Shown: piece by piece, positions 987-20,762 of the stretch
How positions within the stretch are numbered: position 1 is the stretch's first letter
How the letters are laid out: every line of letters starts with the position of its first letter
NCBI GenBank assembly: GCA_015058955.1
Contig: SVBJ01000008.1
Location: 1 to 64,000, forward strand
DNA length: 64,000 nucleotides
Direction of reading: 5' to 3'
From: Erysipelotrichaceae bacterium
GTDB taxonomy: Bacteria > Bacillota_I > Bacilli_A > Erysipelotrichales > Erysipelotrichaceae
Position numbers and translations under genes: made by a program
The notes under the pieces: generated by a model
What the model was told of the DNA's origin: nothing
The model's database searches: none
The model's input: the letters and a program-made list of their open reading frames with translations, nothing else

Positions 987-987
987 A

Positions 988-1980: not shown

Positions 1981-1996
1981 TTTCTTTTCTCCTTCT

Positions 1997-3250
1997 CTAG
2001 TCTTCACGCCATAACGGCATGCTCATGCATCTCGGGCCTCCTCTGCCTCTTGACAGTTCAGCGCTTGGCATGGTCAGTACCTTCAAGCCCTTCTCACGCA
2101 AGATGGCATTGGTTATATCATTACGTTCGTAACAGATGATTACGCCCGGAGCGATGCATAATGTATTGGAACCGTCGTTCCACTGTTCTCTGGCTGCGGC
2201 AATCAGATCATCACCGCCGCAGTAGATCAGTTCTACTTTGTCAACACCCGTGTACTTTTCCAGAATGTGTTCCAGGGTGTCTTCCAGTTTTCTGACCTGC
2301 AGGTCATCGGGATTGTGCTTTTCACCTTCAGGAGGTGTTATTTCATAAACTTCCAGAGGTCCGATGATGGCCGGATGCACGGTATACTTGTCAACATCAA
2401 CTCTGGTAAAGACCGTATCAAGATGCATGAAGGCGCGTGATTCCGGAATCTTGAAGGCCAGAACCGTGCGGATCCTGCAGTCAGGGTCACTGAACAGGTT
2501 GATGGCTGCTGCTTCAATGGCATCAGGTGAGGTTCTCTGGGATATGCCGATGGCCAGAACCGTATCCGTCAGATTGAAGACATCGCCGCCTTCAATGGTG
2601 GCATGATAATCACGGTCATAATAACGTTTGACAAATCCGGCAAAATCCGGATGATATCTGAAGATGTAATCCGCATAGATCGTTTCACGGTTACGGGTCG
2701 GATAGCGCATTCTGTTAACAAAGGCACCCTCTCCCACTGAGGCAAACGGATCACGCTGGAAATAAAGATTCGGCATTGGAGCAACTATCAGATCGTCATT
2801 CGGTGCGATCCTGTCCTGCAGTGAATAGGCCTTGACCTTATCTCCCAGGTATTCCTGCATTTCCTTCAGGGTGATGCCTTCCATGGTCTTGAGAACCAGA
2901 TCCTTTCCCCTGAAACGGGTGATCATGTATCTGTACAGGATGTCACGCCATCTTTTGGTCTTGATATCACCTTCCGAGAGCCACTGATATACAAACGACT
3001 CAATGAGCTTTGGATGAAGAGTCAGTACTTCCGTCATCAGATCTTCCAGATACACTACTTCCACACCGTTGTCCTTAAGGATCCGGACAAAGGCATCATG
3101 CTCTTTCTGGGCATCCTTTAAAAACGGGATGTCATCAAAAAGCAGCTCCTGCAGGGTATCCGGTGTCAGATTCAGCAGTTCCCTTCCCGGACGGTGAACC
3201 AGCACTTTTCGCAGCGGCTTTATTTCACTTGTTACATGAATTCCCTTCAT
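1997..3250 (-). CDS. arcA: Arginine deiminase
   Basis: Hydrolyses arginine to citrulline and ammonia, the first step of the pathway. It is 417 residues long, typical of the family. The guanidino-modifying fold is marked by [16 protein letters not shown] and [10 protein letters not shown]. The C-terminal [10 protein letters not shown] carries the nucleophilic cysteine near residue 408. AAGGAG precedes the ATG. It is the first gene of the operon, with a leader of about 95 bases after a good sigma-A promoter. ADI confers ammonia production and acid tolerance in many fermentative Bacillota; that role here is inferred. Confidence 0.97.
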
Positions 3251-3436: not shown

Positions 3437-6400
3437 TTACTTCTGATACAGTTCAATTGGTGAACTGCTGCTTAACCCATACAGTTTCCTGACCGTATCA
3501 TCGTCAATTCTGGCAGTACCGCCCAATACGACACCGTCAGTAATTCCCTGACTCTGCAGGTATTCTCTGGCTATGGAGGCTTTATCAGATCTGGTCAGGA
3601 TGACCGGAGCCTTCAGCATCTGAGCCAGCGGTCCGCCGCATAAGCCATCCGGGAAGTCATTGCTGAAAGCCAGTACTGCACACTTCGGTGCTTCAAACAG
3701 CTTCTCAGCGATCCTTACTGATGTTTCAAATCTGTTGGCACCGGCAATTCTTTCAACTGAGCCATATGTCTTCAGCTGGTTTTCAATGTCGCTGCTGACG
3801 GCTTTTTCACCGCCCAGGATGATGAATTTCCTGCCCCTGATATCTTTCAGGTATGACTTCTGAACATCGTCCAGAGCGTCCTTAACCAGCAGCAGAGGCA
3901 ATCCGGTGGCGGATGCAGAGAGTGAATCCGCAAAATCCTTACCCGTAGCTACCAGTATGACTTCAGAAGTCAGGTCAGAATCCTTCAAGATTTCCAGGTT
4001 GGTTCCGTATCTGTTATCGCCAGCCAGTCTGACAACGTTCTTAACGCTCTTTCTGACTTCCTTTTCAATTTCAGATGAGATGGCTGAAGTACCGCCCAGA
4101 ATGTAAACCTTACCGTCCGGATTCATTACAGTTTTCAGATATGCTTCAATTTCAGCAGCACTCTTATCATCGATCAGCATGATCGGACATTCATTGACTG
4201 CCGCCAGATAAGAACCTGATAAGGCATCGGCGAATTTTCCGCCGCAGGCCAGGACGATGGCATCAAGTTTTTCTTCCGCCTTGGCTTCCATGATGAAGTC
4301 AGTGATTGATTCAGCGGTCTTATATCTGTTGTCACCGGCAACTCTGACGATTCCTTCAATTACCGGTTCTTCAGAAGCCGTTACGGAATACTGGCCATGG
4401 CAGATTGCACAGGTGTAGGTCGTCGTATTGCCGACTGTCACACCTTCATCATACTGACACTTTTCAGTTTCCTTATGCGTTGGATCATTGCCACAGACAC
4501 GCGTATGTGTACCGACCTGTGCACCATCATAAATCCATTCACCATAGTCATGGCCCAGAGCATTTATCTCTCTGGTTTCCTTTTCATGACATCTTGAGCA
4601 TTCTCTTTCTTCCAGGCCCTTTTCCGTACAGGTTGCTGCCTTGGTGACAGTCCAGCTGTTCCAGTGGTGCCCAAGTGCTGCAATGACGAAGTGTTCGGAT
4701 GAAATGACTTCATTGCATACCGTGCATCTGACAACCTCATCATATGAGCCTGCAGACGTACAGGTAGCTGCGACTTCGTTTTCCCTGTGCTTTTCATCGG
4801 CTTTATGTCCGGTTGGTTCAACTCTGACGGTTTCTCTGCTCAGCTGTTCACCGCATTCACTGCAGTATATGACGATGTCATAAGAACCTTCCTTTATACA
4901 GGTTGGCTCTACCTTGTTTTCGATGACCTTGTCACCTTCCTTATGACCTGTAGTCGGAATGTTATCCAACTTTTTCTGCTGAGACATAAACATCTTGTTG
5001 GTAAAGGCGGCCGTATAGGTCGTTTCACCCATTTCGGTACAGGTTGGCTTTCTGGTCACTTCACTGCTGGTCTTAACGGTTTCGGTAATCTGATGAGCAT
5101 TATCGTTAAGACAGTGCACACTGGCAGTTGCCTGACTGTTGTCTTCAGACCAGCTGTATGTTATTTCACCCCAGTTATGACCAATGGCAGATAAAGTAAC
5201 CATCTTGGTTTCACTGTGCTGTTTGCCGTCATAGCTTTCTGTAGCACTGATGAATACTGTATATGTGACGGATCCATCTTCTGTACAGGTTGACGCAACA
5301 GTCACTTCCGTGCTGTTTACGGTAATGAATCTGGTTTTTCCTGACTCTTTATCGGTATAAACCGCATCAGCCTTTGAATAATCATCAGACCATCTGAATT
5401 CAGTGAACTCAAAATCATACCCCAGAGCCGGAAGAGTTATTTCCTTCTCATCCTGATATGTCTTGCCATCAGGACCGGTAACACTTACAGTGTAGGTTCT
5501 CTTGCCGTCAGTCTGATGTGTAGGAGAAGTCTCCTCAATTACAGCCTCAGCTGATCTGATGCTTTCCTGATGTGAGGCATCATTCCGGCAGGTAAATGTC
5601 GCTGTTGCATGCATGAAATCATTGTCCCAGCTCCAGACAGGTTCTCCCCAGCTGTGGCCGGTAGCCTTAATGATCAGCTCAGTGGTCATTACCGGCTGAC
5701 TGCAGACTTCATCAAGGAAAGATGTTCCGCATCTTGAACATGTATAGTGTGCCATCATGCCGTCCTGTGTACAGGTAGCAGGTATCTCGGCATGATAGCT
5801 GACATCGTGTCCCAGCATAGGTAAAGTGACATCCTTATGTTCCTGATGGCTCTGCTTATCCGGGCTGTTTTCCGCACTTATTTCAGCAGTATATCTGTCC
5901 AGACCGTTTACATCGCACAGCGGATCCTTCTGTCTTTCCACGGTTACCTTTGCATTGGCAGTTGTCTTATGCCGTGAATCATTAAAACAGGTGTATTCAG
6001 CCACGGCACTTTCATTGCCGGTCCAATTGAAGCTGGTAAAGTTCCACTTATGTCCTGTTGGATTAATATTGGCCACAACGCTGTTCTGATTTTCAAAAGC
6101 AGGATTTGTGAATACTGCGGTATATGTTGTCTCACCTGCTGTTTCACAGGTTGCCTGTTTTGTTACCCGGGATGTCGTACTGACGGTTTCAGTTTCAATG
6201 TGCCCAGGATCATTTGCACAGATCCTGCTGGCTGTGACCTTAGTGTTGTCAGCCGACCATTCATATGTAACTGTTTCCCAGTCATGTCCAGTTCCCTTAA
6301 CCGTAACCGTTGATGATTCATTCAGGGCAAGCTGAGTGTTTCTCTGAGAAGTAACGACGGTTACCTGACCGTCATCACAAGGTACCTCAAATCTGACGGT

Positions 6401-9400
6401 GGCAATTGCCGTATTGGCCTTGATTGAATTTCTGGCACCGTAGACGATCTTAATGGTTCCGGTTTCTTCATTGATATTGAATGATACGATTTCTGCCGCA
6501 CTTCCAACAGTAACTGTTGGATTGCTGAGGACTTCCGTATCGTAAGTTATTTCAAAAATGCCGTTTTCAGATGCACTGTCTTCTGACAGAGTTATGACAG
6601 CTGTACCTGATTCGGTAACGGAAACTCCATTAACCTTTTTAATAACCAGGTTGGCAGGTATTCTGTAAGCTTCGGTAGAACCGGTTACTTCATTTACCGC
6701 TTCTTCTGTTTCCGCAACTTCTTCCATTTCAGCAACATCACTGACGGAAACCGTGATGGCTCTTTCCATCTTTTCTGCTTCAGCATGGAAGCGGCTGAGC
6801 ACTTCATCCGTCATCATTTCTTCTCTGGTCATCTGTTTTGTCAGATTGAGTTCCAGCGGTTCCTCTATATCCATCGGTTCATCACCTGCAGAAGCCGGAG
6901 CTGCTGATCCCCTGACAAACAGTCCTGCTACCGGCCAGACATCTTTACCGAAGTCGCCGGCATGATACAGGGCACCCGTACCCGGATTAATGATGATCAA
7001 TTCTGTCTGTGAACCGTCACAGTGTGTCCAGTAAATGTATGTTCCGTCATAGTAAAGTGACTGATACAGAAAACTCGTGGAGATTCCGGTATCAATTACC
7101 TGTGTCGGAGTACTGAATGTCAGACCTGTTCTGGATGAATAGGTCAGATTTGTCTGCCAGATCTTTCCTGATTCATCAAGGTAATAGTAGGTTCCTGAAG
7201 TTGTACTTATCGTCTTGGCTGCAACACCGCAGATATAGGCGTCACCGCTGGTTTCAGAGATATCCAGCAATCCATATGGGAATCCTGAATATGTTCCCAG
7301 TTCATCATCAGTTTCCGGGCTCAGGTTTCCTATTACAAGGTAATTGGCAAAACCGTAGACATAATAATTATTGAAACTGCTGCTGGAAGGACCGCGGGTC
7401 GCATCAACTGCAACCACATAGTTTGTTCCCAGTTCAGTTAAGGCATAACTGGAGGAATTGACAGAATAAAGAATCGTTTCAGCACTGCCTGCATCAAGAG
7501 TTCCGGCATACAGCGCTGATGCTGTATTCTGGAAGGCTGAGTGCAAGTCCTTTTCCCGGCTTGAATCATGCAGTTTATTCCATGTCGGAAGACTGCTGGT
7601 ATTGAAGCCTGAGAAATAAACCTTTCCCTCTTCATCCCAGACAATACCGTTGAGGTTCTTATTGACAACGGTGACCCTGACACTACAGCTGGCCGTTACC
7701 GCATTATTAGAATTGGAGGTGGCAGTGATCGTAGCATTTCCTGAACCTACCGCCACAACATGTCCGTTCCGGTTAACAGTGGCAACAGAATTATTGCTGC
7801 TGCTCCAGCTGACCGTACGGTCTTCAGCAGTTAACGGAAGTACCCTGGCAACAAGATCAGTCTCATTGCCTTTATACAGGTCAAGTGATTCCGGTGTCAT
7901 CTTAATGGAAGTGACATTATATGGATCTACTTCCATCCTGATAACGGTTTTCTTATACAGATAAACACTGGCTGCCGAAGTACCCAGAGTGAAGGAGCTT
8001 CCTGAGTAGCCGAGATATCTCGAGTTATTTGTCAGCTGATGTGATGAGCTGTTCCAGCTCCATTGTGCTCTGCCTGTTGATGTGGCAAAGGTCAGCCGGT
8101 TGCTTGTGCTGCGTGCGGCATAATAGTTTCCGTTCTTGAAATACCAGCCTTCTGAGACTGTAAATATGGATGTAGCAGCAGCATCGGTACTGTCGATGTA
8201 TGGACTGCCAACTGTGCTGTTTGCAGCCCTGACAGTTACACTGCTGGTATTTGGAGTTGTATTTGTATGTCCCAGAGCAACACCGTTTCCTACTGTATTT
8301 CTGTTTACGATCAGATAATCCTCTTCAGCAGTAAGCGTATCTGTCAGAACATATACAGTTCTTTCTTCATAGTTGTTATCATTGACTTTTACGGCCTTAG
8401 CTGTTTCATTACCGGCATAGTCACCCGCAAATACAGCAACATATCCATGGGCATTGGCAATCGCTTCAGATGCATCAAAGGTAATTGAGTATTCGGAAGT
8501 TCCCGGTGCCTTTTCAGCATACTTTACTTCACCATCAAGTGACAGTACGGCAACATAAGCCAGTTTATAGTTATCTGAAGCAGTAACAGTCAGATTGCTG
8601 CCGCTTAAGACAGCCTTGGTTATGATTGGATCGGTATTGTCGATCAGGAAATCATAGCCAACGAAAGCACCCCTGCCCAGTTCATTCTTCATCAGCAGAG
8701 TTTCAAATCTGGCTGATGACAGTATGCCGGCATTGGCTGACGAGTAGTCATTGTTGACTTTCATGGCGTTGTATTCCGGAACAGCATAGAAGCCAATGCG
8801 GAACATTTCGCCTTCCTTCAATCCCTTATCAGACGGCTTGAAGTTTGACTGAATGAATTTGATACCGGTGTTCTGCCATGAACCCTGAGATTCATAATAC
8901 CAGATGCCTTCGACTTCATTGCCGATGACTCTGTTTTCCACGACATCGGTAACTTCACCGTCATAATCACTGATTTTTGAAACCGCAAAGCCGGTAGTTC
9001 CAGCGGAACGGATCAGGTTGTAAACGATCTTATTAATGGTTGAATAGCTGTTAATGGCCAGTTTGTCAGATGGGAAAGCGTCTTCAACCATGTAAGGGTT
9101 GCCTGTAAACTTGGTGTTGACACCGTTATATGTCAGTTCAATGTAATTTGTATTTGTATTGCCGGTATATGGGATCTTTTCTGTTCCATATACAGTATCC
9201 ACATATGAAGTATTGTCAAACATTGACGGATCAGTCCAGTTGCCGTAGAAACCTAATAATGGAATGGTATGTGTATGCTGATAGCTCTTTCCTTCACTGT
9301 CGGAAGTGATGCATTCAACTTTGGTAAAGCCTTCAATGTATGCTCCTGAAGGATAGTTATTGAGCTTACTGTCAGAAACACTTATTTCAACGGTGACCAT

Positions 9401-12076
9401 TCTGCTGCCGTGAGCAGGTACGGTATTTGCCGGTACACTTCCTCCTTCCGGCTGCCAGTTAAGAAGCAGATGGATGTCTCTGGAACTGATGGTGTCATCC
9501 TCATCCATGTCACCGGCTGACAGATCAAGAGAACTGCCATCAATGTTTCCGGCCAGGTGTTCTGCCAAAGCCCTGGCATCCTGCTGATCAGTCTGACCAT
9601 CTTTATTTACGTCGTGCTGAGGTCCGCTGACTTCCCCCATCTGCTGCCAGATGTAGTTTACGGAAGAATTAAGCGGTGTAGTTGTATAATCCATGAACCA
9701 TTCACCTTCATCAGAATATCTGTCCTGAGTGAAGATGTCCGTGCTCAGTCTGTATTCCAGATCAGTATTGCTCAGGTTATAGATGGTAAATGAATATGAA
9801 TAACTGCCTGTCTTTGCAGGATCATCGCCGAATTCGACCTTTACCTTGCCGTCAGCGGCAGAACCTGTTCTGGCGGTAAGAGTATCATCGTTTTCATTGA
9901 TCATGATGACCGAAGAGGCAGTAACAGCCTTTGAGACTTCAGCCAAACCTGAACCCTGCTGAAGAACTGATACGTAATTACCGTTATTCTTCATCGGTGT
10001 AGCCGTAGACATCAGAAGACTCTGAGTTACGGCACGCGTTGAATATTTTTCATTAAGTGCTTCATTTGAATCAGCTATCTTATTCTCTCTGAGATACTGG
10101 GCAACAACTGCTGCCAGACCGGTTACATGCGGAGCAGCCATGGAAGTACCGCTCATCAGTTCATACTGATCTGAACCTCCGGTTGTACTACCGCTGGTGG
10201 TCTTATTGGTTCCGAAAATGGAATAGATATCTCCGCCAGGTGCCGTAATCTCCGGTTTCATGATCAGAGAACCGGGAACACCCCAGGAGCTGAAATCCGT
10301 CATTTCAGCATCTTCTCTGGCAGTGATCTGTCCGTTAACAACGCTGCTGGTTACGGTTATGGTTCCGGTATAGTATGTATAATTTCCAGTCGTTTTCTTA
10401 GTTGAATTGTTCTTGATGTTTTCAGCGTCAGCCAGAGTAATTGAAACTACCGGGAATGAACCGGTAAAATCATCTAAGTCCATGCTGATGGCACCAGGCT
10501 GGTTATTGGCAATTATCAGTGCTTTCGGTTTGTAGCTGATGGAATTATTGGCCTTGTCAACGAAGGTATTACTGCCGCGGTTAACGATAACGATCTTGTC
10601 ATTCAGAGAGACAGCACTGTTAACGGCACTGTAATCATCAGCTTCACCCAGAGCATCAATGTATACAAATGAATATGAACCGGTAATTGAAGTCATGGCA
10701 GTCTTGCCGGTATCAGTGTAGTAAATGTCCTTACCGTTGAATTTCAGAGGAGCTCCAGTTGCTCCAATATTCTGAGCTGCCGCAACACCCAGACTGTTAA
10801 TGTATGTTCCAGGTGAACCGCCTGTATGCAGGCTGACATCGTCAATGTACAGATCTGTTTCCAGATACTGGGTCAGTGCATAGGAGTTGCCGGCTGAAAT
10901 GACAACAACCATTTTGTTATTGGCATTAGTTGACAGTTTATTAAGCATTTCCTGATAGGTATTGCCAAAGGTAAATCCAGGTGATCCGCCTCCAAGCGAC
11001 AGGTTGGCACTGTCACATCCCAGGGTAATGGCATCTTCAAGGGCTGCAAAGTAATCAGAATCATATGCTCCTCCTGCTGCGCCGAATACCTTCATTACCA
11101 ATATCTGAGCATCAGGAGCCATGCCTACCGCGTGAACTGTTGAAGCAGCGTCAACATAACTGTTTCCCTGCTTGATGAATCTGTTGGCGGCGGCAATGCC
11201 GGCAACATGTGAGCCATGTTCGCCTTCGGTATCATCAAGATGTGTTATTTTCTGATTTTTATCAACATAGTTATATGCATAAGGAATTTTTGCAGATATG
11301 TACCGGCCCTGTCCATTCAGATCCAGGTTACTGTAATCAGCCGCAGTCATCAGAGTTGGCTTGTTTTCCAGCTGATTAATGGCATAGTTAAAAGCATCTG
11401 CATTAACAGACTGATGTGTAGTGTCAAGTCCCGTATCAATTATGGCTATTCTGCTGCCCGCACCGGTATAACCGGCAGCCCAGGCTGCGGTTGCTCCTAC
11501 CATGCCGGTTGAAGTATTGGCAGTCAATGGATCAGATACGCTGTCATCCATCGCTTCATAACGGTTCTCCAGGAAAACTCTCTTAACACCGCTGATCATT
11601 CTGATCTTGTTGATGTCCCCGTATCTGACATTAGCGGAGATGATGTTGGCAGCCAGAGTAAGATTCCATTTGACATCCAGCGGTCTGTTCAGCTTCCGTT
11701 CAATGGTCTTTGTCATTGCCGCCTGCTGTTCAATAAGAGAATCACGGTAAGAAACCGCACTACGGTTCTTGGCAATGTTCTCCGTTGAATATCCGGCATC
11801 TATCGTTGAAGGCTTATCCAGTACAATGGAAACACGTACCACGTCATCCCGGTTGAAATCAAATGTTATTTCCTCTTCAGGTTCTTCCTGCTGTTCAACT
11901 TCTCCAAGTTTATGAATGTGGAGTGTTGATGGATCAAGTTCTTCCAGTTCCAGCTCAACCGGTTCCCCGTTTCCGTTATCCGGCAGGTCAGAAGTATCTG
12001 CGTATACCGGCAGAATATGTGAAACAGATATAGCCAGTGCCAATATCATTGTTATAAATTTTATGGTTTTTTTCAT
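3437..12076 (-). CDS. Giant cell-wall-bound subtilase with dockerin- and cohesin-like modules and CWB2 anchor
   Basis: Predicted secreted serine endopeptidase of family S8 (C5a peptidase/lactocepin-like layout), 2879 residues. Order: signal peptide (1-30); propeptide-like region (75-175); catalytic domain with Asp in AIIDTGLD (about 212), His in EHGSHVAG (about 287) and Ser in SGTSMAAP (about 645), with an inserted PA domain (about 470-560); Fn3-like region; dockerin-like module with two calcium loops, DVNKDGQTDQQD and DMDEDDTISSRD (about 825-880); Big_2 (about 1380-1470); a propeller-like stretch; cohesin-like beta-sandwich (about 1810-1930); ten GHxW modules with CxNDxxH or CxxC pairs (about 1930-2560); three CWB2 repeats marked RVAGDNRY, RLAGDNRY and RIAGANRF (2575-2879). 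The ATG at 12076 has AAGGGTGA before it; an upstream in-frame start has none. Substrate unknown. Confidence 0.93.
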   Translation of the reverse strand: MKKTIKFITMILALAISVSHILPVYADTSDLPDNGNGEPVELELEELDPSTLHIHKLGEVEQQEEPEEEITFDFNRDDVVRVSIVLDKPSTIDAGYSTENIAKNRSAVSYRDSLIEQQAAMTKTIERKLNRPLDVKWNLTLAANIISANVRYGDINKIRMISGVKRVFLENRYEAMDDSVSDPLTANTSTGMVGATAAWAAGYTGAGSRIAIIDTGLDTTHQSVNADAFNYAINQLENKPTLMTAADYSNLDLNGQGRYISAKIPYAYNYVDKNQKITHLDDTEGEHGSHVAGIAAANRFIKQGNSYVDAASTVHAVGMAPDAQILVMKVFGAAGGAYDSDYFAALEDAITLGCDSANLSLGGGSPGFTFGNTYQEMLNKLSTNANNKMVVVISAGNSYALTQYLETDLYIDDVSLHTGGSPGTYINSLGVAAAQNIGATGAPLKFNGKDIYYTDTGKTAMTSITGSYSFVYIDALGEADDYSAVNSAVSLNDKIVIVNRGSNTFVDKANNSISYKPKALIIANNQPGAISMDLDDFTGSFPVVSITLADAENIKNNSTKKTTGNYTYYTGTITVTSSVVNGQITAREDAEMTDFSSWGVPGSLIMKPEITAPGGDIYSIFGTNKTTSGSTTGGSDQYELMSGTSMAAPHVTGLAAVVAQYLRENKIADSNEALNEKYSTRAVTQSLLMSTATPMKNNGNYVSVLQQGSGLAEVSKAVTASSVIMINENDDTLTARTGSAADGKVKVEFGDDPAKTGSYSYSFTIYNLSNTDLEYRLSTDIFTQDRYSDEGEWFMDYTTTPLNSSVNYIWQQMGEVSGPQHDVNKDGQTDQQDARALAEHLAGNIDGSSLDLSAGDMDEDDTISSRDIHLLLNWQPEGGSVPANTVPAHGSRMVTVEISVSDSKLNNYPSGAYIEGFTKVECITSDSEGKSYQHTHTIPLLGFYGNWTDPSMFDNTSYVDTVYGTEKIPYTGNTNTNYIELTYNGVNTKFTGNPYMVEDAFPSDKLAINSYSTINKIVYNLIRSAGTTGFAVSKISDYDGEVTDVVENRVIGNEVEGIWYYESQGSWQNTGIKFIQSNFKPSDKGLKEGEMFRIGFYAVPEYNAMKVNNDYSSANAGILSSARFETLLMKNELGRGAFVGYDFLIDNTDPIITKAVLSGSNLTVTASDNYKLAYVAVLSLDGEVKYAEKAPGTSEYSITFDASEAIANAHGYVAVFAGDYAGNETAKAVKVNDNNYEERTVYVLTDTLTAEEDYLIVNRNTVGNGVALGHTNTTPNTSSVTVRAANSTVGSPYIDSTDAAATSIFTVSEGWYFKNGNYYAARSTSNRLTFATSTGRAQWSWNSSSHQLTNNSRYLGYSGSSFTLGTSAASVYLYKKTVIRMEVDPYNVTSIKMTPESLDLYKGNETDLVARVLPLTAEDRTVSWSSSNNSVATVNRNGHVVAVGSGNATITATSNSNNAVTASCSVRVTVVNKNLNGIVWDEEGKVYFSGFNTSSLPTWNKLHDSSREKDLHSAFQNTASALYAGTLDAGSAETILYSVNSSSYALTELGTNYVVAVDATRGPSSSSFNNYYVYGFANYLVIGNLSPETDDELGTYSGFPYGLLDISETSGDAYICGVAAKTISTTSGTYYYLDESGKIWQTNLTYSSRTGLTFSTPTQVIDTGISTSFLYQSLYYDGTYIYWTHCDGSQTELIIINPGTGALYHAGDFGKDVWPVAGLFVRGSAAPASAGDEPMDIEEPLELNLTKQMTREEMMTDEVLSRFHAEAEKMERAITVSVSDVAEMEEVAETEEAVNEVTGSTEAYRIPANLVIKKVNGVSVTESGTAVITLSEDSASENGIFEITYDTEVLSNPTVTVGSAAEIVSFNINEETGTIKIVYGARNSIKANTAIATVRFEVPCDDGQVTVVTSQRNTQLALNESSTVTVKGTGHDWETVTYEWSADNTKVTASRICANDPGHIETETVSTTSRVTKQATCETAGETTYTAVFTNPAFENQNSVVANINPTGHKWNFTSFNWTGNESAVAEYTCFNDSRHKTTANAKVTVERQKDPLCDVNGLDRYTAEISAENSPDKQSHQEHKDVTLPMLGHDVSYHAEIPATCTQDGMMAHYTCSRCGTSFLDEVCSQPVMTTELIIKATGHSWGEPVWSWDNDFMHATATFTCRNDASHQESIRSAEAVIEETSPTHQTDGKRTYTVSVTGPDGKTYQDEKEITLPALGYDFEFTEFRWSDDYSKADAVYTDKESGKTRFITVNSTEVTVASTCTEDGSVTYTVFISATESYDGKQHSETKMVTLSAIGHNWGEITYSWSEDNSQATASVHCLNDNAHQITETVKTSSEVTRKPTCTEMGETTYTAAFTNKMFMSQQKKLDNIPTTGHKEGDKVIENKVEPTCIKEGSYDIVIYCSECGEQLSRETVRVEPTGHKADEKHRENEVAATCTSAGSYDEVVRCTVCNEVISSEHFVIAALGHHWNSWTVTKAATCTEKGLEERECSRCHEKETREINALGHDYGEWIYDGAQVGTHTRVCGNDPTHKETEKCQYDEGVTVGNTTTYTCAICHGQYSVTASEEPVIEGIVRVAGDNRYKTAESITDFIMEAKAEEKLDAIVLACGGKFADALSGSYLAAVNECPIMLIDDKSAAEIEAYLKTVMNPDGKVYILGGTSAISSEIEKEVRKSVKNVVRLAGDNRYGTNLEILKDSDLTSEVILVATGKDFADSLSASATGLPLLLVKDALDDVQKSYLKDIRGRKFIILGGEKAVSSDIENQLKTYGSVERIAGANRFETSVRIAEKLFEAPKCAVLAFSNDFPDGLCGGPLAQMLKAPVILTRSDKASIAREYLQSQGITDGVVLGGTARIDDDTVRKLYGLSSSSPIELYQK

Positions 12077-12111
12077 AAAATCACCCTTAATTAAAAACAT
12101 AAACTGTTTTA

Positions 12112-12141
12112 ATTATATATTTTTGCACCCATGTTTTTCAA
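12112..12141 (-). promoter_or_regulatory. Promoter of the CWB2-anchored subtilase gene
   Basis: Minus-strand TTGAAA (12136-12141), an 18-base spacer and TATAAT (12112-12117). A dyad at 12135-12156 (TTTTC/AGAAC then GTTCT/GAAAA) overlaps the -35 box and could be an operator. Confidence 0.65.
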
Positions 12142-12156
12142 GAACTGTTCTGAAAA
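12135..12156. promoter_or_regulatory. Dyad overlapping the subtilase -35 box, candidate operator
   Basis: Outer arms TTTTC and GAAAA and inner arms AGAAC and GTTCT form a nearly perfect inverted repeat with a one-base bulge. It covers the -35 box of the giant subtilase, a typical place for a repressor. The regulator is unknown. Confidence 0.4.
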
Positions 12157-12235
12157 CTATCTGATGTTTTCACAGTCAATGAAAACTGCTTTCAAAAACA
12201 CAGTATCTGTCTTTTCTCAATCAGTCAAACTGTTA

Positions 12236-12241
12236 TATAAT
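12236..12241 (+). promoter_or_regulatory. -10 box upstream of the double flavodoxin-like gene
   Basis: TATAAT stands about 50 bases before the ATG at 12292. No good -35 box is seen 17 bases upstream; an overlapping TGTTATATA could serve as an extended -10. Confidence 0.45.
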
Positions 12242-12291
12242 TTAGTTACAAAGACAGACGATAATTGACTTGCTCTGAGAGGAGAACGACC

Positions 12292-13437
12292 ATGAACCTG
12301 CTGATACACGACCTATCACCTCAACAGTTCAGTAAGATAAGCAAGGATTATGAAGATTGGACAGTAATATCTGATAACGGAAAAATCCAGCCATGTCTGG
12401 GCTGTTTTTGTTGCTGGCATAAAACACCTGGTGAATGCATCCGCAAGGACGGCTATGAAAACATGGGTGCACTGGTCCATTATGCCCAGAAAGTCACCAT
12501 CATCAGCAGATATACCTATGGTGGGGTTTCCGGCTTCGTAAAAAACGTCTTAGATCGCTGTCTGGGTTACGTCCTGCCGCAGTTTGAAATAGTCAACGGT
12601 GAATCACATCATCAAAAAAGATATGACGATGACAAGCCTTTCACCTTCATCTTCTACGGCAACAACATAACTGAACAGGAAAAAGCTGAGGCAATCCGTT
12701 ATGCAAATGCAGTATGTGCAAATTTCAGATGTCATGTCAGACAAGTAGTTTTCCAGAAAACAGCTGAGCCGGAGAGGATTCCGGAAATAACGCCTGTTGA
12801 GGAATCCGGCAGAACCGTTTTCATTAACGGATCTCTGCGATATGAAAAAGGCAACTCTGCTGCCTTTGCATCAATACTGGCTGGAATGTTGAAAACAGAG
12901 CCTGAAATCATTGCGCTGCGGAAGCATCTTAACGATCTTTCCGGGCTGACAGCTTCTCTCAGGAACGCATCGACAATCGTCTTCTGTCTCCCGTTATACG
13001 TAGACGGCCTGCCTTCTCAGATAATAAGACTGCTGGAAACCTTCCAGAAAGAATACAGCGGGCCATCCAAGAGAATATATGTTCTGGCCAACATGGGATT
13101 ATATGAAAGCCAGCAGCTGGTCAACCTGTTTACGGCAGTCAGACAGTGGAGCAGTAAAATGGGATTTGATTACTGTGGCGGATTAGGCATCAGCGCCGGT
13201 GAAATGATAGGTCTGCTGGTACAGCAGCTTCCACAGGGTTTCTGGCCAACAAATAAGATATACAAGGGAATTAAAACTCTGGCTGACGCCATCAACAGAA
13301 ACGCCGGAATCGAAGACGTTTATGCTGAACCATTCCTTTTCCCTCGTTCCCTGTATCTGGGAATTGCCAACAGAAATTGGAATAACCTGGCCAGAAAAAA
13401 CGGCATAAAGCCGAAAGATCTATACAGAAAGCTCTGA
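12292..13437 (+). CDS. Tandem flavodoxin-like NAD(P)H-dependent oxidoreductase
   Basis: Cytoplasmic flavoprotein-like product of 381 residues that appears to contain two flavodoxin-fold (FMN reductase-like) halves. The N-terminal half has a cysteine-rich PCLGCFCCWHKTPGECIRKD segment near residues 35-55, as in the PF03358-type reductases, followed by TYGGVSGFVKNVLDR. The second half begins near residue 178 with VFINGSLRYEKGNS, a typical first strand and phosphate loop, and continues with LPLYVDGLPSQ. The ATG at 12292 follows GAGAGGAG; an upstream in-frame start lacks one. It is a single-gene unit divergent from the subtilase. Substrate unknown. Confidence 0.72.
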   Translation: MNLLIHDLSPQQFSKISKDYEDWTVISDNGKIQPCLGCFCCWHKTPGECIRKDGYENMGALVHYAQKVTIISRYTYGGVSGFVKNVLDRCLGYVLPQFEIVNGESHHQKRYDDDKPFTFIFYGNNITEQEKAEAIRYANAVCANFRCHVRQVVFQKTAEPERIPEITPVEESGRTVFINGSLRYEKGNSAAFASILAGMLKTEPEIIALRKHLNDLSGLTASLRNASTIVFCLPLYVDGLPSQIIRLLETFQKEYSGPSKRIYVLANMGLYESQQLVNLFTAVRQWSSKMGFDYCGGLGISAGEMIGLLVQQLPQGFWPTNKIYKGIKTLADAINRNAGIEDVYAEPFLFPRSLYLGIANRNWNNLARKNGIKPKDLYRKL

Positions 13438-13443
13438 ACACAA

Positions 13444-13469
13444 AAAAGTTCCTGAATTCAGGAACTTTT
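13444..13469. terminator. Bidirectional terminator
   Basis: A perfect 26-base palindrome (AAAAGTTCCTGAA and its complement) lies between two convergent genes. A/T tracts on both sides let it serve both the oxidoreductase (+) and the lipoprotein (-). Confidence 0.85.
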
Positions 13470-13470
13470 A

Positions 13471-14280
13471 TTATCTATCAGGCAATACAGTGCCACCGGA
13501 AGGTGTCATATCCTTCCGTTCATCAAGAATGGCACTTTCCACATAGTCCAGTTTCACAGCGTTGTCTGCCAGTATGGTTAATCTCTTGAAGCTGGCTGGT
13601 TCGATTTCAAAGACATAGATTCCGGCTGATTTTATCTGCGATCTGAGTTTACCACTGCAGAACCGTTCAAACCGAGTTACCTTGGAGTCGCTCTCACCAT
13701 CAGTAAACTTTACAACTATGCGTGAACTGCTGTACTTTTTACCTGTCTGAGGATCTGTTACCGTCTTTTCACTCTTAATCAGCATCCTGTCTTTTCCCAG
13801 ATCATTGGTCTTCTTGATTCTCTTTCTGACCTTGTCTGTCACTCTTTCATCTATTTTCACACTTGGTTCTCCGCCCATCACACAAACACCCTCTTCATCT
13901 ATTTTCACCAGCCTGCCATTATTTCTGATCAGCAGGTATTTTTCATCTGTTTCCAGAGTAGTTCTGACCATGTCTCTGGAAATGAGCTCTTCCAGTCCTT
14001 CAGTATGAATAATAAGGCATGCCAGCCTGTCATCCTCATAAACCGGATAGACATAGGAAACATAATCAAGAACCTTGCCTTCATCTGAGAGATTGTTTAT
14101 TTCAACCCCGGTTCCCATATAATAGAATCCTGTTCTTTCACCAAGAATGAGAGAGGCATACAAAACAACATCTGATGGGATTTCATCAGGGTCCATGTTC
14201 CTGTTCTCAATTACATCATCCGGCCTTGTACAGCCGCTTAAAAGCAGGCACAGAGCAATAAAGCACAATAATTTCTTCAT
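13471..14280 (-). CDS. Lipoprotein with C-terminal subtilase-prodomain-like segment
   Basis: A 269-residue predicted lipoprotein: positive start, hydrophobic stretch and LLSGC lipobox (Cys about 17), so anchored outside the membrane. The middle is not recognised. Residues about 185-262 (SSRIVVKFTDG ... GKLRSQIKSAGIYVFEIE ... LDYVESAILDE) resemble the fervidolysin/I9-type prodomain that folds and inhibits subtilases, but no catalytic domain follows. It lies between two giant subtilase genes, which suggests a trans-acting inhibitor or folding helper. A remnant of a protease that lost its catalytic part is the main alternative. The ATG at 14280 has no ribosome site; a -10 box ends seven bases before it, so the mRNA is probably leaderless. 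Longer in-frame starts fall in the promoter and are rejected. Confidence 0.75.
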   Translation of the reverse strand: MKKLLCFIALCLLLSGCTRPDDVIENRNMDPDEIPSDVVLYASLILGERTGFYYMGTGVEINNLSDEGKVLDYVSYVYPVYEDDRLACLIIHTEGLEELISRDMVRTTLETDEKYLLIRNNGRLVKIDEEGVCVMGGEPSVKIDERVTDKVRKRIKKTNDLGKDRMLIKSEKTVTDPQTGKKYSSSRIVVKFTDGESDSKVTRFERFCSGKLRSQIKSAGIYVFEIEPASFKRLTILADNAVKLDYVESAILDERKDMTPSGGTVLPDR

Positions 14281-14287
14281 TAAACAC

Positions 14288-14316
14288 ATTATCAAGTAAA
14301 AAGCCGAATTATTCAA
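14288..14316 (-). promoter_or_regulatory. Promoter of the prodomain-like lipoprotein, inside a terminator hairpin
   Basis: Minus-strand TTGAAT (14311-14316), a 17-base spacer and GATAAT (14288-14293). Only seven bases separate the -10 box from the ATG, so transcription should begin at or one base before it. The -35 box lies in the loop of the upstream terminator. Confidence 0.72.
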
Positions 14317-14331
14317 GTAATCCGGCTTTTT
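14298..14331 (-). terminator. Terminator of the sortase-anchored subtilase gene
   Basis: AAAAAGCCG and CGGCTTTTT arms, about 20 bases after the stop at 14352, with a T-run on the minus strand. The hairpin contains the -35 box of the next gene. Confidence 0.82.
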
Positions 14332-14351
14332 GAGTTATTGATCAGAAATTA

Positions 14352-17300
14352 TTATTTCTGGAAATAACCTTTCTTCTTCATTGTGAAGAATACATATGCA
14401 AGAGCACTCATGCTTCCTAAGAATGCAATCGTCCATGCAGTGATGTTGAGTGCATCTCCTGTTTCAGGAGCAGGTTCTGGCAGAGCAGGAATTACTTCTT
14501 CATACTCAGTGCTGTATTCCTTTCCGTCAGGTCCGGTTACGGTAACCTTGTATACTCTCTTGCCTTCCTTGCCAACTTCTGCAGGAACTTCTTCGGTGAT
14601 CTCAGACTTTTCAGTTACTTCTTCAACATGATCTTCATCATGCTTGCAAGTGAACTTGGCAGTGGCTTCACTGTGGTCATCATTCCATGTCCATTCAGGT
14701 TCGCCCCATTCATGTCCGACACCTTCAGCCTCAGTTTCCTCAGTAGCGATGACAGCCTCTTCACCGACTTCGTCATTGCTTTCAAGAGTTTCAATCTTGA
14801 CAGTTGCGTCATCGCATCCCTTCTTGAAGATGATGGTTGCGATAGTATCGCCTTCTTCAACACCTTCGAGATCAGCGAATGCAATCTTGATCATTCCTTC
14901 TTCAAGGTCATTTACTGAAGTGTATTCAAGTTCAGTCCTGGTCTCAACATACTCGAGTTTCTCTGGATCATAAGTGATTCTGTATAATCCGTTGTGTGAA
15001 AGATCCTTGGCTGTCAGAACAACTTCAAATGTATCAGCATTTTCTTCTTCTGCTGGTTCATCAGCAACCGGTTCGTCAGTTGCAGGTTCGCCTTCTTCTC
15101 TGTTGATTCTTACAGGGTTGCTTGTGAAGCCCTTAACGGCATTTGCCGTACCGGTTACTTCATTAGCAGCTTCTTCAGATTCTTCAACAGCAGCTGCAGG
15201 TTCAACTAACTGAACAAACTGTGCGTGGAACTTGGTTTCAAGCTTGTCTGTTCCGATAATTTCTTTTACCTTACCAGAACCTGTTTCAGGTGCGATATCT
15301 TCATATACCAATGCATCATATCCATCATTGAACAGAGATGACAGGTTGGTTGCACCATCTACGACACCGATGAACTGAGCATCAGCTTCACCATTGAAAT
15401 ATACTGACATGATATCAACATAGTAGATACCCTTTGAAGTATTATCACCAATGAATAATCCCCAGTCGTCGAAGTCCGGATTACCTTCTTCGTCAAAGAT
15501 ATGACCTGTGCTGCATGTCATTGTATAAGCAGTCAGATCATCACTGATCGTGATTCCATTTACCTTACCTAACAGCATTGAACCGCCGTCAACATCGATA
15601 CCGCTGTCTACTTCAATACCATATACATAGTAGAGATACAGTGATCCGTCAGCAGTCAACAATGCATAGTCAAACTCTGGGTCAGTTGGATCTTCCAGAT
15701 CATAGCCAATCAGTGCCATGGCAACGATGTCTTCGATATCAGTATCCAGATACCATAAGTTACCTGTATTAGTGTAGAATACCAGCTTGTTTGCAGCTGA
15801 TACACCGGCCGCAACATATGCATAGTCAAGTTCGCTGCCAGCTTCACTTACTCCTACCCAGTGAGGGATCATGGCACCGTCGATCATGACATACTGCTTA
15901 TCAACAGTTACTTCAAATTCACTGTCAATGGCAAATTCTTCAGCATCATATCTGTGGATGGTGTTACTCTTGTTGATTCCATATACATAGTTGCCTGAAC
16001 GGCCGCCATTGTATACTTCTTCAGCTTCGGCATATGGATATACGCTCATGTCAGTAAGGTCGATAGCACCATAATATACGCCATCGCCATCAGCAACCTG
16101 AGCATTGATGTAACCGTTGACAGGGCTTGCCTCAACAACGTTTACAACTGCCTGTGCAGCCATTTCAGGTGTCTGATTTGAAGTAGCAGTAATGGTTACC
16201 TGACCTACAGATACTGCTGTTACTAAGCCGTTTTCATCAACTGTAGCGATTGAAGGGTCAGATGATTCCCACTTGACACTCTTGTCTTCAACAGTGACAG
16301 GCTTGATAGTAACGTTGAACTGTCTTTCTTCATCAACACCCATGATCAGGGTAGTCTTGGTTGGATCAATTGTGATTTCGCCGACTTCTTCAGGATCTAT
16401 CGCTTCTACAAGCTCAGTCTTCTCATAAAGATAAACCGGCCCTGGTTCAGTTTGAGTGAAAAGGAAGTAAGTGTTGAAATATAACGCTCCAAACGGAACT
16501 GCTTCTCCTGTTTCCTCATCTATTGTCATATCAAACAGGATGTTATTAGAGTAGGTAAATCCGTCTGCATATGAAACATCACCCCAGTTTAGTAAAGGAT
16601 AGTCTAAACGATTTGCAACCAGAATTCCTCCATCACTCTTACTCTGGAAACCAACACCATATGGATTTTCAAAAGTATACCAGATAAATGTATCATCAGT
16701 ATCTTCTGCCAAAATATATGGAGCATTTTCGCCATCATCAGTAATTACAGTTTCTTCAACAAGCGTGTAATACTGAATACCCTGTGAATATAAAGCATTT
16801 GTCTTACCAGCTTTATTTGTGCTGGCAATAATATATTCACTGTCAGGATTTAATGTGTCTGTCAGCATGTAAACTGTCTGTTTAGTGATAACATCACCTT
16901 CCTGGAAACGGACAAGCTTTACCTGTTCATTTCTTGCATAGTCACCGACAAATAATGCTGCAGCATTTGGAAGATTCTTAATTCCGCTGACATCCAATGT
17001 AACGGTTACTTCCTGACCAGGAGCTGTCTGTTCAGGTACTTCACCGACTATTACGATTTCACCCTGAACATCCATCAGGCCGATGAATGCAATGTATTTG
17101 TCATCCTTGGCAGTTACTGTAACAGTTGTCTTGTCTTCAGAAACTTCGAACTTGCTGATTTCAGGAGCAGTGTTATCAATTGTAAACTGATAGCCTAAAG
17201 CTGCACCATCACCAACTTCACCGTTTTCAATGAATTCAAGTAACTGGTCTTCAGTAAGCTTGTTGCCCTTGCCTTCGTTGGCAATGACACCAAAGTATTC

Positions 17301-20300
17301 AGGAACTGTATATACATCAATTGAGAACTTGTCGCCCTCATCATATCCGAGTTCCTCAGCTGTGATGCCTACAGGAACCACATTGGCACCGGTGTAGACC
17401 CAGCCTGGTGTAGAAGACTGAGAGTTATAGTATGCACCAACGGTCGGAGTTGCATCAAAACCGAACTTGTCGATGATATTACCGTCTGCGTCTCTGATCA
17501 CAACGATCTGAGCTACAAAGTTTCTGTATGTTGTATAACGTGCATTCTTGATGACAGTTTTGCTGTTGATGGCAAATCTTTCTTCATCAATTTCAGGTTC
17601 AGCAATGTAAGGGTTGCCAGAGAACCATGCATTTCTGCCGTCAGCATATTTCAGCTGATAGCCGTTTGTATTTTCAGCACCCCAGTAAGATTCCTTTTCA
17701 CTTGAACCCATAGCCTGTTCAACATATGATACTGCATCATACATTGAAGGATCAGTCCAGCTGCCATAGTAACCTAATACAGGGATTGAATGCTGTACGT
17801 CGTCTTCGCTCTTAACGAATGTAAATCCTTCAACATAACCGCCGTTTTCACGTTCTTCAAGGATGGATCCTGAAACATTGATCGTTACGGTTACTGTAGC
17901 TGTCTGACCGGCTGCCAGATAGATGAAGTCTTCACCGATACCGTGTTCTTCTTCTAACCATGCCAGTAACAGATAAGCGTCTCTGGATGTAATTTCTTCA
18001 TCTTCGTCCATCATACCGGCTTCCAGATCACATTCTTCTTCTGCTCTTAATCCTGTGATATAGTCCAGAATTGCCTGAGCATCATCAGAATCAGTATCGC
18101 CGTCCTTGTCGAAGTCATGACCTTCAGCTCCGCCTACGATGTTATAGGTAACTTCACCTTCAACAGGTGCAGTCCAAGGAGCCAGGAATTCTTCATAGAT
18201 GTCCTGAGTAAACAGATCTGTGCTGAATTCATACTTGATTGTGTTTTCAGAGAAATTGGTGAGTTCAAATGTGTATTCAAATTCGCCGGTTCTTTCAGGA
18301 TCATGTCCTAATTCAGCCTTTACCTTGTAGTCAGCTGCTGCACCGGTGATGGCTGTCAGGTCATCGCCTTCTTCACTCATGTGAATGAATGACTTGGCGG
18401 TAACTGCTCTTTCAACATTGACCAGACCTGAACCCTGCTGTAATACAGGATAGTAGCAGTCTTCCTCATCCTTCAGAGGTTCTGAAGTTGACATCAGCAC
18501 GCTTAAAGCATACTGCCTTAAAGTTAAGCCGGTCTTGCCTTCAATGTCATTCTCTCTGTAATACTGGCCGATTGCGGCGATGATACCGGAAATCTGAGGA
18601 GCAGCCATTGATGTACCTGACATCAGTTCATACTCTTCGTGTCCGCCTAAGATATCATCACTGTCTTCAGCCATGTGTAAGCCATTTGCAGAGTAGATGT
18701 CTCCTCCTGGAGAAGTGATTTCCGGCTTCAGGACCAGAGAACCAGGAACACCCCAGCTGGAGAATTCACTCATTTTGTAATTAGGGCTATTGTATCCCTG
18801 ATGTTCAATTGAAGCACTGATGCCGATCTTACCTACATAGTATGTATATTCTTTTTTAGCTACGTCATCAATTTCACCTTCATCATCATAGATCAGTTCA
18901 TAACCGGTAAATGTGCCGCTGGAAGTAGCATTATCCTTGAAGAAATGACCGTCATCCAGCTGTACCAAAACGGCTGGTGCTGTAGCCAGATAGCCAGTAA
19001 GGTTCATGCCCATGTTTCCAGGCTGATTATTAACGATGATCGTAGCGATACCGCCGGCAATTACTGAACCGTTGGCTTTGGCAAAGAATGAGCTTGAACC
19101 ACGGTTACATACGCCGATCTTTCCTTCAAATCCAACTTCCTCAGGAAGTAATGCAAAGAGGTTGAGCGGTGTCCGTGCTGTATAATATCTATAATCTGCA
19201 TCTGCAGCATCACCATAAACATCACTAGGGTTGCAGATCATGCCCGGACCATCGATGTATACATATTCATATTCACCGGCAATTGAGCTGATTGGTGCGT
19301 TGCCATATGTAGCTGATTCGTTGAATGTGATCTTGTCTCCGCCAACATCAAGCAGCTGCCCGGTATAACCGTCGTTATCAACTGAGGCAACGGAGAAAGT
19401 GTTGATGTAGGTTCCAGGAGAACCGCCTGCACTGTAGTTGATGTCATCAGAATACAGAGTAGCCTGCTGGTCCCAGGATGAGTTGTTACCGGCTGAGAAG
19501 ACAACTACCATTGCCTTTTCGGTCAGAGAATCCAGAATTTCCTGATATGCATTTGGTGCATAGATGAAACCAGGATCAGCTGAACCGAGTGACAGATTAG
19601 CTGAATCTGCACCTAAGACGATGGCATCTTCAATTGCTGAGAAGTAATCTGAATCATAAGCGCCGCCGCCGACACCGAAGACCTTCATGACTAAGATCTG
19701 TGCATCCGGTGCCTGACCTACGGTAAACTTTGCTTCAGCAGCGTCAACGAATTCACCGTCAACCTTGACATATCTGTTGGCAGCTGCAATACCTGCTACG
19801 TGAGAGCCATGTTCGCTCTTATGGTCATGAATGTGTGAAACGTCAGTATTCTTATCAACATAGTTATAAGCATAAGGAACTTTTTCATTGACATAGATAC
19901 CAGGAACGTTCAGTGAATCCCGCAGTGCTGCCAGATCATCTTCTGTCATTAAGCTGTCAGCGAAACCGCCTTCTTCAGCAGAATGTGCCAGAGCGTCACC
20001 GGCAAAGGAAATGTGTTCAAGGTCAAGACCTGAGTCAATGATGGCTACCTTGCTTCCGGCACCGGTATACAGTGAGGAATTCTCGCCATTTGATTCAGTC
20101 ATGTCTCTTGAACTGATCATGTTAGGATCAGCACTGCTGCCGCCGGAAGTCTGTGACATTTCATATCTGTTTTCAATGAATACGTCCTTCACACCGTCCA
20201 GCAGTTTGATCTGATTGATCTTACCGTAAGGAACTTCTGCGGAAATGATGTTGGCTGCCAGCGTAAGATTCCACTTTACATTGAGCTGCTTTCCGCCAAG

Positions 20301-20672
20301 AACCTTTGAAGAAATCTGAGCAGCGATCTTGTCCTGCTGTTTCTTCAGGGAGTTACGGTAGGAAATAGCCTGTCTGTTAGTTCCAATGCCCTTTACGTCA
20401 TATCCTGCATCAATGGCAGAATTGCCTTCAAGAACAATAGAAACACGGACAGTCTGGTTTTGAGAGTATGGAAGTACAACATCAATGTCTTCCTCCTCAT
20501 CGAGTTCTCCCAAAATCGGTGCACTGAGCCCAGGCTGCTTTTCAACCTCAGTTACAGGTCCGAATTCAGAAGGTTTTTCATCTTCGGCAAAGACAGTGGT
20601 CACATGCAGATGTGAAACCATCAGAGTCAAAGCCAGAAGAATCGTGAACCATTTCTTAAAACTCTTCTTCAT
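14352..20672 (-). CDS. Giant sortase-anchored subtilase with dockerin- and cohesin-like modules
   Basis: Predicted surface serine endopeptidase of family S8, 2106 residues, a paralogue of the protease at 3437-12076. Order: signal peptide (1-30); propeptide-like region; catalytic Asp in AIIDSGLD (about 212), His in EHGSHVAG (about 288) and Ser in SGTSMAAP (about 688), with a PA insert (about 515-600); Fn3-like region; dockerin-like loops DFDKDGDTDSDD and MMDEDEEITSRD (about 850-910), the second missing its first acidic ligand; Big_2 (about 1430-1515); propeller-like stretch; cohesin-like domain (about 1875-1960); one GHxW module (about 1985-2065); PETGD, a membrane helix and KKK tail, a sortase signal. 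The ATG at 20672 follows AAAGGAG. The protein is strongly acidic. Anchoring differs from its paralogue: covalent here, CWB2 there. Confidence 0.93.
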   Translation of the reverse strand: MKKSFKKWFTILLALTLMVSHLHVTTVFAEDEKPSEFGPVTEVEKQPGLSAPILGELDEEEDIDVVLPYSQNQTVRVSIVLEGNSAIDAGYDVKGIGTNRQAISYRNSLKKQQDKIAAQISSKVLGGKQLNVKWNLTLAANIISAEVPYGKINQIKLLDGVKDVFIENRYEMSQTSGGSSADPNMISSRDMTESNGENSSLYTGAGSKVAIIDSGLDLEHISFAGDALAHSAEEGGFADSLMTEDDLAALRDSLNVPGIYVNEKVPYAYNYVDKNTDVSHIHDHKSEHGSHVAGIAAANRYVKVDGEFVDAAEAKFTVGQAPDAQILVMKVFGVGGGAYDSDYFSAIEDAIVLGADSANLSLGSADPGFIYAPNAYQEILDSLTEKAMVVVFSAGNNSSWDQQATLYSDDINYSAGGSPGTYINTFSVASVDNDGYTGQLLDVGGDKITFNESATYGNAPISSIAGEYEYVYIDGPGMICNPSDVYGDAADADYRYYTARTPLNLFALLPEEVGFEGKIGVCNRGSSSFFAKANGSVIAGGIATIIVNNQPGNMGMNLTGYLATAPAVLVQLDDGHFFKDNATSSGTFTGYELIYDDEGEIDDVAKKEYTYYVGKIGISASIEHQGYNSPNYKMSEFSSWGVPGSLVLKPEITSPGGDIYSANGLHMAEDSDDILGGHEEYELMSGTSMAAPQISGIIAAIGQYYRENDIEGKTGLTLRQYALSVLMSTSEPLKDEEDCYYPVLQQGSGLVNVERAVTAKSFIHMSEEGDDLTAITGAAADYKVKAELGHDPERTGEFEYTFELTNFSENTIKYEFSTDLFTQDIYEEFLAPWTAPVEGEVTYNIVGGAEGHDFDKDGDTDSDDAQAILDYITGLRAEEECDLEAGMMDEDEEITSRDAYLLLAWLEEEHGIGEDFIYLAAGQTATVTVTINVSGSILEERENGGYVEGFTFVKSEDDVQHSIPVLGYYGSWTDPSMYDAVSYVEQAMGSSEKESYWGAENTNGYQLKYADGRNAWFSGNPYIAEPEIDEERFAINSKTVIKNARYTTYRNFVAQIVVIRDADGNIIDKFGFDATPTVGAYYNSQSSTPGWVYTGANVVPVGITAEELGYDEGDKFSIDVYTVPEYFGVIANEGKGNKLTEDQLLEFIENGEVGDGAALGYQFTIDNTAPEISKFEVSEDKTTVTVTAKDDKYIAFIGLMDVQGEIVIVGEVPEQTAPGQEVTVTLDVSGIKNLPNAAALFVGDYARNEQVKLVRFQEGDVITKQTVYMLTDTLNPDSEYIIASTNKAGKTNALYSQGIQYYTLVEETVITDDGENAPYILAEDTDDTFIWYTFENPYGVGFQSKSDGGILVANRLDYPLLNWGDVSYADGFTYSNNILFDMTIDEETGEAVPFGALYFNTYFLFTQTEPGPVYLYEKTELVEAIDPEEVGEITIDPTKTTLIMGVDEERQFNVTIKPVTVEDKSVKWESSDPSIATVDENGLVTAVSVGQVTITATSNQTPEMAAQAVVNVVEASPVNGYINAQVADGDGVYYGAIDLTDMSVYPYAEAEEVYNGGRSGNYVYGINKSNTIHRYDAEEFAIDSEFEVTVDKQYVMIDGAMIPHWVGVSEAGSELDYAYVAAGVSAANKLVFYTNTGNLWYLDTDIEDIVAMALIGYDLEDPTDPEFDYALLTADGSLYLYYVYGIEVDSGIDVDGGSMLLGKVNGITISDDLTAYTMTCSTGHIFDEEGNPDFDDWGLFIGDNTSKGIYYVDIMSVYFNGEADAQFIGVVDGATNLSSLFNDGYDALVYEDIAPETGSGKVKEIIGTDKLETKFHAQFVQLVEPAAAVEESEEAANEVTGTANAVKGFTSNPVRINREEGEPATDEPVADEPAEEENADTFEVVLTAKDLSHNGLYRITYDPEKLEYVETRTELEYTSVNDLEEGMIKIAFADLEGVEEGDTIATIIFKKGCDDATVKIETLESNDEVGEEAVIATEETEAEGVGHEWGEPEWTWNDDHSEATAKFTCKHDEDHVEEVTEKSEITEEVPAEVGKEGKRVYKVTVTGPDGKEYSTEYEEVIPALPEPAPETGDALNITAWTIAFLGSMSALAYVFFTMKKKGYFQK

Positions 20673-20762
20673 AAAACTCCTTTCCATTCCCTTTCCACGC
20701 AATAAATCTTAATCGATTAATCGCACAAAAAAGTAAAAAAGATTTTTCCACCTATGGTTCTT

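Follow-up and report, generated by a model that had tools for sequence, protein, structure and literature searches.

Two large, secreted subtilases, proteases A and B, are encoded close together in the genome of an Erysipelotrichaceae bacterium, and each carries both a dockerin and a cohesin. Dockerin and cohesin are a known pair, the one the plug and the other the socket. The findings that follow directly support both modules with their folds, the position of the dockerin inside a fibronectin-type (Fn3) domain, the surface anchors, the joint retention of the modules among relatives, and the conservation of their recognition positions. On comparison of these sequences, we propose that the dockerin and cohesin of A and B form a self-type coupling system that would link the wall proteases without a scaffoldin, and we regard the chances of this as about evenly balanced. 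If the modules do pair within the family, then cohesin–dockerin coupling would serve wall proteases of common gut and rumen bacteria in the absence of a scaffoldin; self-assembly would be coded in a single gene; and the finding would bear on how wall proteolysis is organized in these bacteria. The dockerin works here as a nested, mobile insert, and the family offers a compact system for comparing self with cross recognition.

Architecture of the two proteases

The window, the whole stretch of 64,000 nucleotides that was analysed, is part of one contig (C29) of a draft genome of 1.78 Mb. Of the publicly named relatives, the nearest are MAGs from gut and rumen that carry the label Erysipelotrichaceae (L056). 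The features of the two proteases are as follows, in coordinates of the window.

3437–12100, minus strand: protein A, 2887 aa; a secreted S8 subtilase that bears a nested dockerin, a Big_2 domain, a cohesin, repeats in its tail and, as wall anchor, CWB2
9989–11464, minus strand: A, peptidase S8 domain with PA insert; triad D222, H298, S653; oxyanion N405
9665–9883, minus strand: A, first half of the C5a-peptidase-type Fn3 domain
9455–9616, minus strand: A, type I dockerin, inserted within Fn3; calcium loops DVNKDGQTDQQD and DMDEDDTISSRD, both intact
9230–9445, minus strand: A, second half of the C5a-peptidase-type Fn3 domain
7694–7915, minus strand: A, Big_2 domain
6332–6688, minus strand: A, cohesin module; conserved Asn1846, seven residues ahead of the Tyr in YD
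3461–4348, minus strand: A, three CWB2 (cell-wall-binding 2) repeats
14352–20702, minus strand: protein B, 2116 aa; paralogue of A with a sortase-type C-terminus
18516–20063, minus strand: B, peptidase S8 domain with PA insert; triad D223, H301, S698; oxyanion N406
17958–18119, minus strand: B, dockerin, inserted within Fn3; Met at position 1 of the second loop
17751–17951, minus strand: B, second half of the Fn3 domain (fn3_5)
16170–16385, minus strand: B, Big_2 domain
14769–15158, minus strand: B, cohesin module; conserved Asn1904; AlphaFold2 core pLDDT about 95
14355–14471, minus strand: B, sortase-type anchor (APETGD, hydrophobic stretch, KKK tail)

A and B are C5a-peptidase/SpyCEP-like subtilases: each has an S8 domain with a PA insert, an intact Asp/His/Ser triad and a C5a-type Fn3 domain. 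Against NCBIfam NF040553 (the SGO_0316/SGO_0317 LPXTG-anchored serine peptidases) they score 163 (A) and 133 (B) bits, below the subfamily cut-off of 1400. Both begin with a signal peptide, judged by eye. They differ in wall anchor: A ends in CWB2 repeats, B in APETGD followed by a hydrophobic tail. One sortase is encoded in the genome. From the end of the dockerin to the start of the cohesin there are 924 residues in A and 935 in B.

Between the cohesin and the CWB2 repeats, the tail of A (4376–6289) consists of degenerate repeats of ~70–80 residues with the motifs GH.W ... C.ND..H and C..C; these have no Pfam match above cut-off. B has one copy of this repeat. An ORF of 281 aa (13471–14316), also without a Pfam match, lies between the two protease genes. 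The pair is flanked on one side by an arginine deiminase gene set (51–3250), comprising an amino acid kinase family gene, ornithine carbamoyltransferase and arginine deiminase, and on the other by an arginyl-tRNA synthetase-like ORF (21034–22698). Going by these neighbours, the wall proteases might feed arginine catabolism.

The dockerin and cohesin modules

Dockerin-like loops had been read at about 9440–9600 and 17940–18120, and profile searches place the modules there. In A, Pfam PF00404 (cut-off 22.9 bits) matches residues 829–879 (9464–9616) with 26.6 bits in the whole protein, 33.3 in the isolated segment and 34.6 in the genome scan. In B, it matches residues 862–912 (17967–18119) with 13.4, 18.2 and 19.7 bits, respectively, all below the cut-off. 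A profile built from the family dockerins gives 65 bits for A and 83 for B, B itself being a row of that profile. The Fn3–dockerin region of A was modelled with AlphaFold2 at a mean pLDDT of 88.5; residues 85–146 of the model match solved dockerins (6kg9: Z 8.7, rmsd 2.9, 61 residues aligned), and its Fn3 halves align with SpyCEP at Z 10.9. In profile alignments to solved structures, streptococcal C5a peptidases cover both Fn3 halves with few residues between them; at this same gap the A/B family holds ~60 extra residues, and these match solved dockerins. The dockerin is thus nested inside the Fn3 domain. This refines its earlier placement after the ‘catalytic/Fn3 region’: the insert interrupts the Fn3 domain instead of following it. 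Empty sites occur in nature, too: in the family alignment, the Fn3 domain of three relatives (L072, L080 and L083) is uninterrupted. A ‘serine protease’ chain in the PDB (8x39), on which no paper was found in the open-licence literature, also matches the profile weakly in its dockerin part.

The cohesins had been called by fold-level pattern recognition alone, at about 6290–6640 and 14790–15050, and the call proves stronger than that. In the genome scan, PF00963 (curated cut-off 24.1 bits) matches both above cut-off, A with 26.5 bits at 6299–6652 and B with 29.0 bits at 14817–15035; the scores are modest. When hmmscan was used, neither cohesin was detected in the full-length proteins, and of the isolated segments B matched PF00963 (29.2 bits) and A did not. 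The genome scan and the family profile find what hmmscan misses, so these misses are probably due to HMMER's speed filters. The family-cohesin profile finds both cohesins at E < 1e-40, with the proviso that both are rows of it, and a profile of 29 family cohesins matches cellulosomal cohesins in the PDB (4ums, E 4e-5). The AlphaFold2 model of the B module has cohesins as its top structural matches, the best being X82 of Clostridium perfringens (Z 12.4, rmsd 2.2, 105 residues aligned). Predicted structures therefore agree with both calls, cohesin for the B module and dockerin for the A insert; the A cohesin probably has the same fold, judging from its Pfam score and the alignment (A4) that it shares with B.

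Recognition positions were compared in 55 proteins. In the second dockerin repeat, position 10 is Ser or Thr in all 55 and position 11 is mostly Tyr (Arg in A and B); in the first repeat, both positions vary. The cohesins share one invariant Asn (55/55; residue 1846 in A and 1904 in B), which precedes the YD tyrosine by seven residues. Cohesin-2 of CipA (1ohz) has the same register, Asn37 lying seven residues before Tyr44, and Asn37 is among the residues that touch the dockerin's Ser/Thr motif, a known contact code (PMC5772552). From the ungapped alignment, rather than from superposition, the family Asn is probably equivalent to Asn37. The putative recognition positions that are conserved are ones that calcium binding does not need.

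Retention and relocation of the modules among relatives

Relatives were sought in ~930 genomes with a profile (A2) built without either module. A first locus scan had used two patterns, and was biased because one of them sits in the dockerin; the rerun with A2 gave the same result. The family has about 75 members, from gut and rumen Bacillota. Fifty-eight are complete (57 distinct, L153 being a duplicate of L079); this count leaves out two fragments that run off contig ends (L080 and L144), which are without the dockerin and in which no cohesin was seen. Both modules are present in 53 of the 58 (52 distinct), neither in four, and the dockerin alone in one; none of the 58 has the cohesin alone. 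The sole dockerin-only member (L165) is short, its dockerin is weak, and paralogues in its genome have cohesins. Fisher's test gives p 1e-5 for co-occurrence, ignoring kinship, and since there are few independent events on the tree, the count by itself is suggestive. An independent-pairs test yields 2 to 3 pairs, with median sign-test p of 0.25 and 0.5, too few for significance.

Changes in individual lineages weigh more, in our judgement, than this count. Four lineages at separate places on the tree (L083, L152, L168 and L169) have an Fn3 domain free of the dockerin, which has shifted downstream to a site past the Fn3 region and ahead of the cohesin; the cohesin is retained in all four. In L154, the nested dockerin and the cohesin are both gone, and the Big_2 domain and surrounding beta-rich stretches remain (by eye); L072 has neither module. 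The C-terminus of L154 bears a different, canonical dockerin (by eye), and additional dockerins occur at or near the C-termini of L063, L065, L073 and L157 as well, as if docked to a further partner. Other relatives end in SLH-like or sortase-type anchors. Two paralogues lying near each other are common (the window, L056, L061, L064 and L082). A mirror-tree comparison of dockerins with cohesins gives a weak signal (partial r of 0.075 with p 0.09, against controls close to 0).

Candidate partners and known systems

The earlier assumption that the two modules are ‘normally’ found on separate proteins is too strict. Both occur on one chain in adaptor scaffoldins, in Amy4 of Ruminococcus bromii, and in the peptidase-bearing ScaO/ScaP (PMC11557425, PMC5814915, PMC5590126). 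The dockerin of Ruminococcus flavefaciens ScaH recognizes its own cohesin (PMC5301203). Amy4 (Sca1), of the R. bromii amylosome, resembles A and B in being a catalytic enzyme with dockerin and cohesin on one chain, and a potential to self-aggregate has been proposed for it; it differs in being an amylase rather than a protease, in having dedicated scaffoldins, Sca2–Sca5, as partners and, in the part of the paper available, in that no nested dockerin is reported (PMC5814915). ScaO/ScaP of Pseudobacteroides cellulosolvens likewise combine a peptidase, a single cohesin and a dockerin in one chain (PMC5590126), and Acetivibrio cellulolyticus has peptidase-bearing ScaO/ScaP together with an S8-bearing scaffoldin (PMC5590126, PMC3413522). 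Unlike A and B, these belong to cellulosome producers with dozens of cohesins and have PPC modules, and neither nesting in a C5a-peptidase Fn3 domain nor a protease family based on the pair is described in the accessible text. C. perfringens X82 has the closest cohesin fold (2jh2, 2w1n, 2vo8; Z 12.4–11.6) and is similar in that single cohesins are carried by enzymes and a classical scaffoldin is absent. Its cohesins occur on glycoside hydrolases instead of proteases, however, and same-chain pairing is not reported in the available portion of the source (PMC12997984). SpyCEP and the C5a peptidases (ScpA, ScpB) share the S8 protease and C5a-type Fn3 of A and B, without the dockerin between the Fn3 halves. 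Enzymes with both modules are already known; what appears to be new is a protease family outside cellulosomes that is based on the pair, and a dockerin that is nested and mobile. Neither a C5a-peptidase-like family of this kind nor a relocating, Fn3-nested dockerin was found in the open-licence literature, an absence that is weak evidence.

In the coupling that we favour, the dockerin would be held on an Fn3 loop beside the catalytic unit and, in calcium, would bind the cohesin near the wall end of a further copy, or that of the neighbouring paralogue, so that wall proteases would be joined into chains or clusters with no need of a scaffoldin. The draft genome has single-cohesin proteins only and no multi-cohesin scaffoldin such as a cellulosome has, so few other partners exist for the modules of A and B. 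Because the modules are real by sequence and fold and are retained together in the family, they support a partnership within the protein or among paralogues. This much of the earlier proposal of head-to-tail or cross assembly, or an intramolecular clamp, is upheld; no one form is singled out. We infer that the modules would bind each other, mainly between molecules. Counted against self-type coupling are the few independent co-retention events, the weak mirror-tree signal, the imperfect second calcium loop of the B dockerin, and the modest Pfam scores of the cohesins. A larger proposal, that a widespread family of gut-bacterial wall proteases self-polymerizes, each subunit contributing plug and socket to a scaffoldin-free chain or lattice and the dockerin being mobile in evolution, we advance tentatively and consider rather doubtful.

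The same partnership could be closed within one chain, the dockerin gripping its own cohesin so that the stalk folds back and holds the catalytic unit fast close to the wall, or the unit is stiffened by calcium. The modules nearly always share a chain, and relocated dockerins stay on it; and only one family gene was found in several genus relatives (G002, G005 and G007, drafts 75–95% complete), whose coupling would thus involve a single gene product. Both spacing and site should be constrained in a fixed clamp, yet the dockerin-to-cohesin distance ranges from 419 to 1953 residues in the family, which a flexible or between-molecule contact fits better, and more than one nesting site is in use. 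With paralogues lying near each other also being common, we think such a clamp unlikely. Slightly less likely still is that the dockerins plug other surface cohesins and the cohesins accept other dockerin proteins, in a small mixed complex such as that of C. perfringens, whose X82 cohesins are the best structural matches. Candidates for this exist in the same genome, namely a dockerin protein encoded beside a weakly cohesin-like membrane protein (L039) and another membrane protein with a cohesin-like domain (L038), and the dockerin-only member, L165, has cohesins available on paralogues; left unexplained are the pairing of the modules on one chain and the retention of the cohesin when the dockerin moves. 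That neither module docks, the dockerin being an insert with a structural role, stabilized by calcium, and the cohesin no more than a beta-sandwich spacer, is improbable. Cohesin-like folds do appear as stalk or pilin domains among the lower-ranked structural matches, and the imperfect second calcium loop of B speaks for this reading, but the four relocations with the cohesin kept, the lack of both modules in L154 and L072, and the conservation of the recognition positions all speak against it.

Of the two other loci in the same genome, L038 (contig C7, 2515–3525) encodes a protein of 337 aa that is conserved in genus relatives (L037 and L046) and whose cohesin-like domain scores 20–24 bits, below the Pfam cut-off. 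L039 (contig C1, 2175–5371) encodes a secreted glucosaminidase-like protein that ends in a type I dockerin, followed by the membrane protein, in which a Cadherin-like domain accompanies an N-terminal domain with weak likeness to cohesin (BatD/DUF11). This gene pair recurs in two relatives (L053 and L054), and may be a second cell-surface docking pair.
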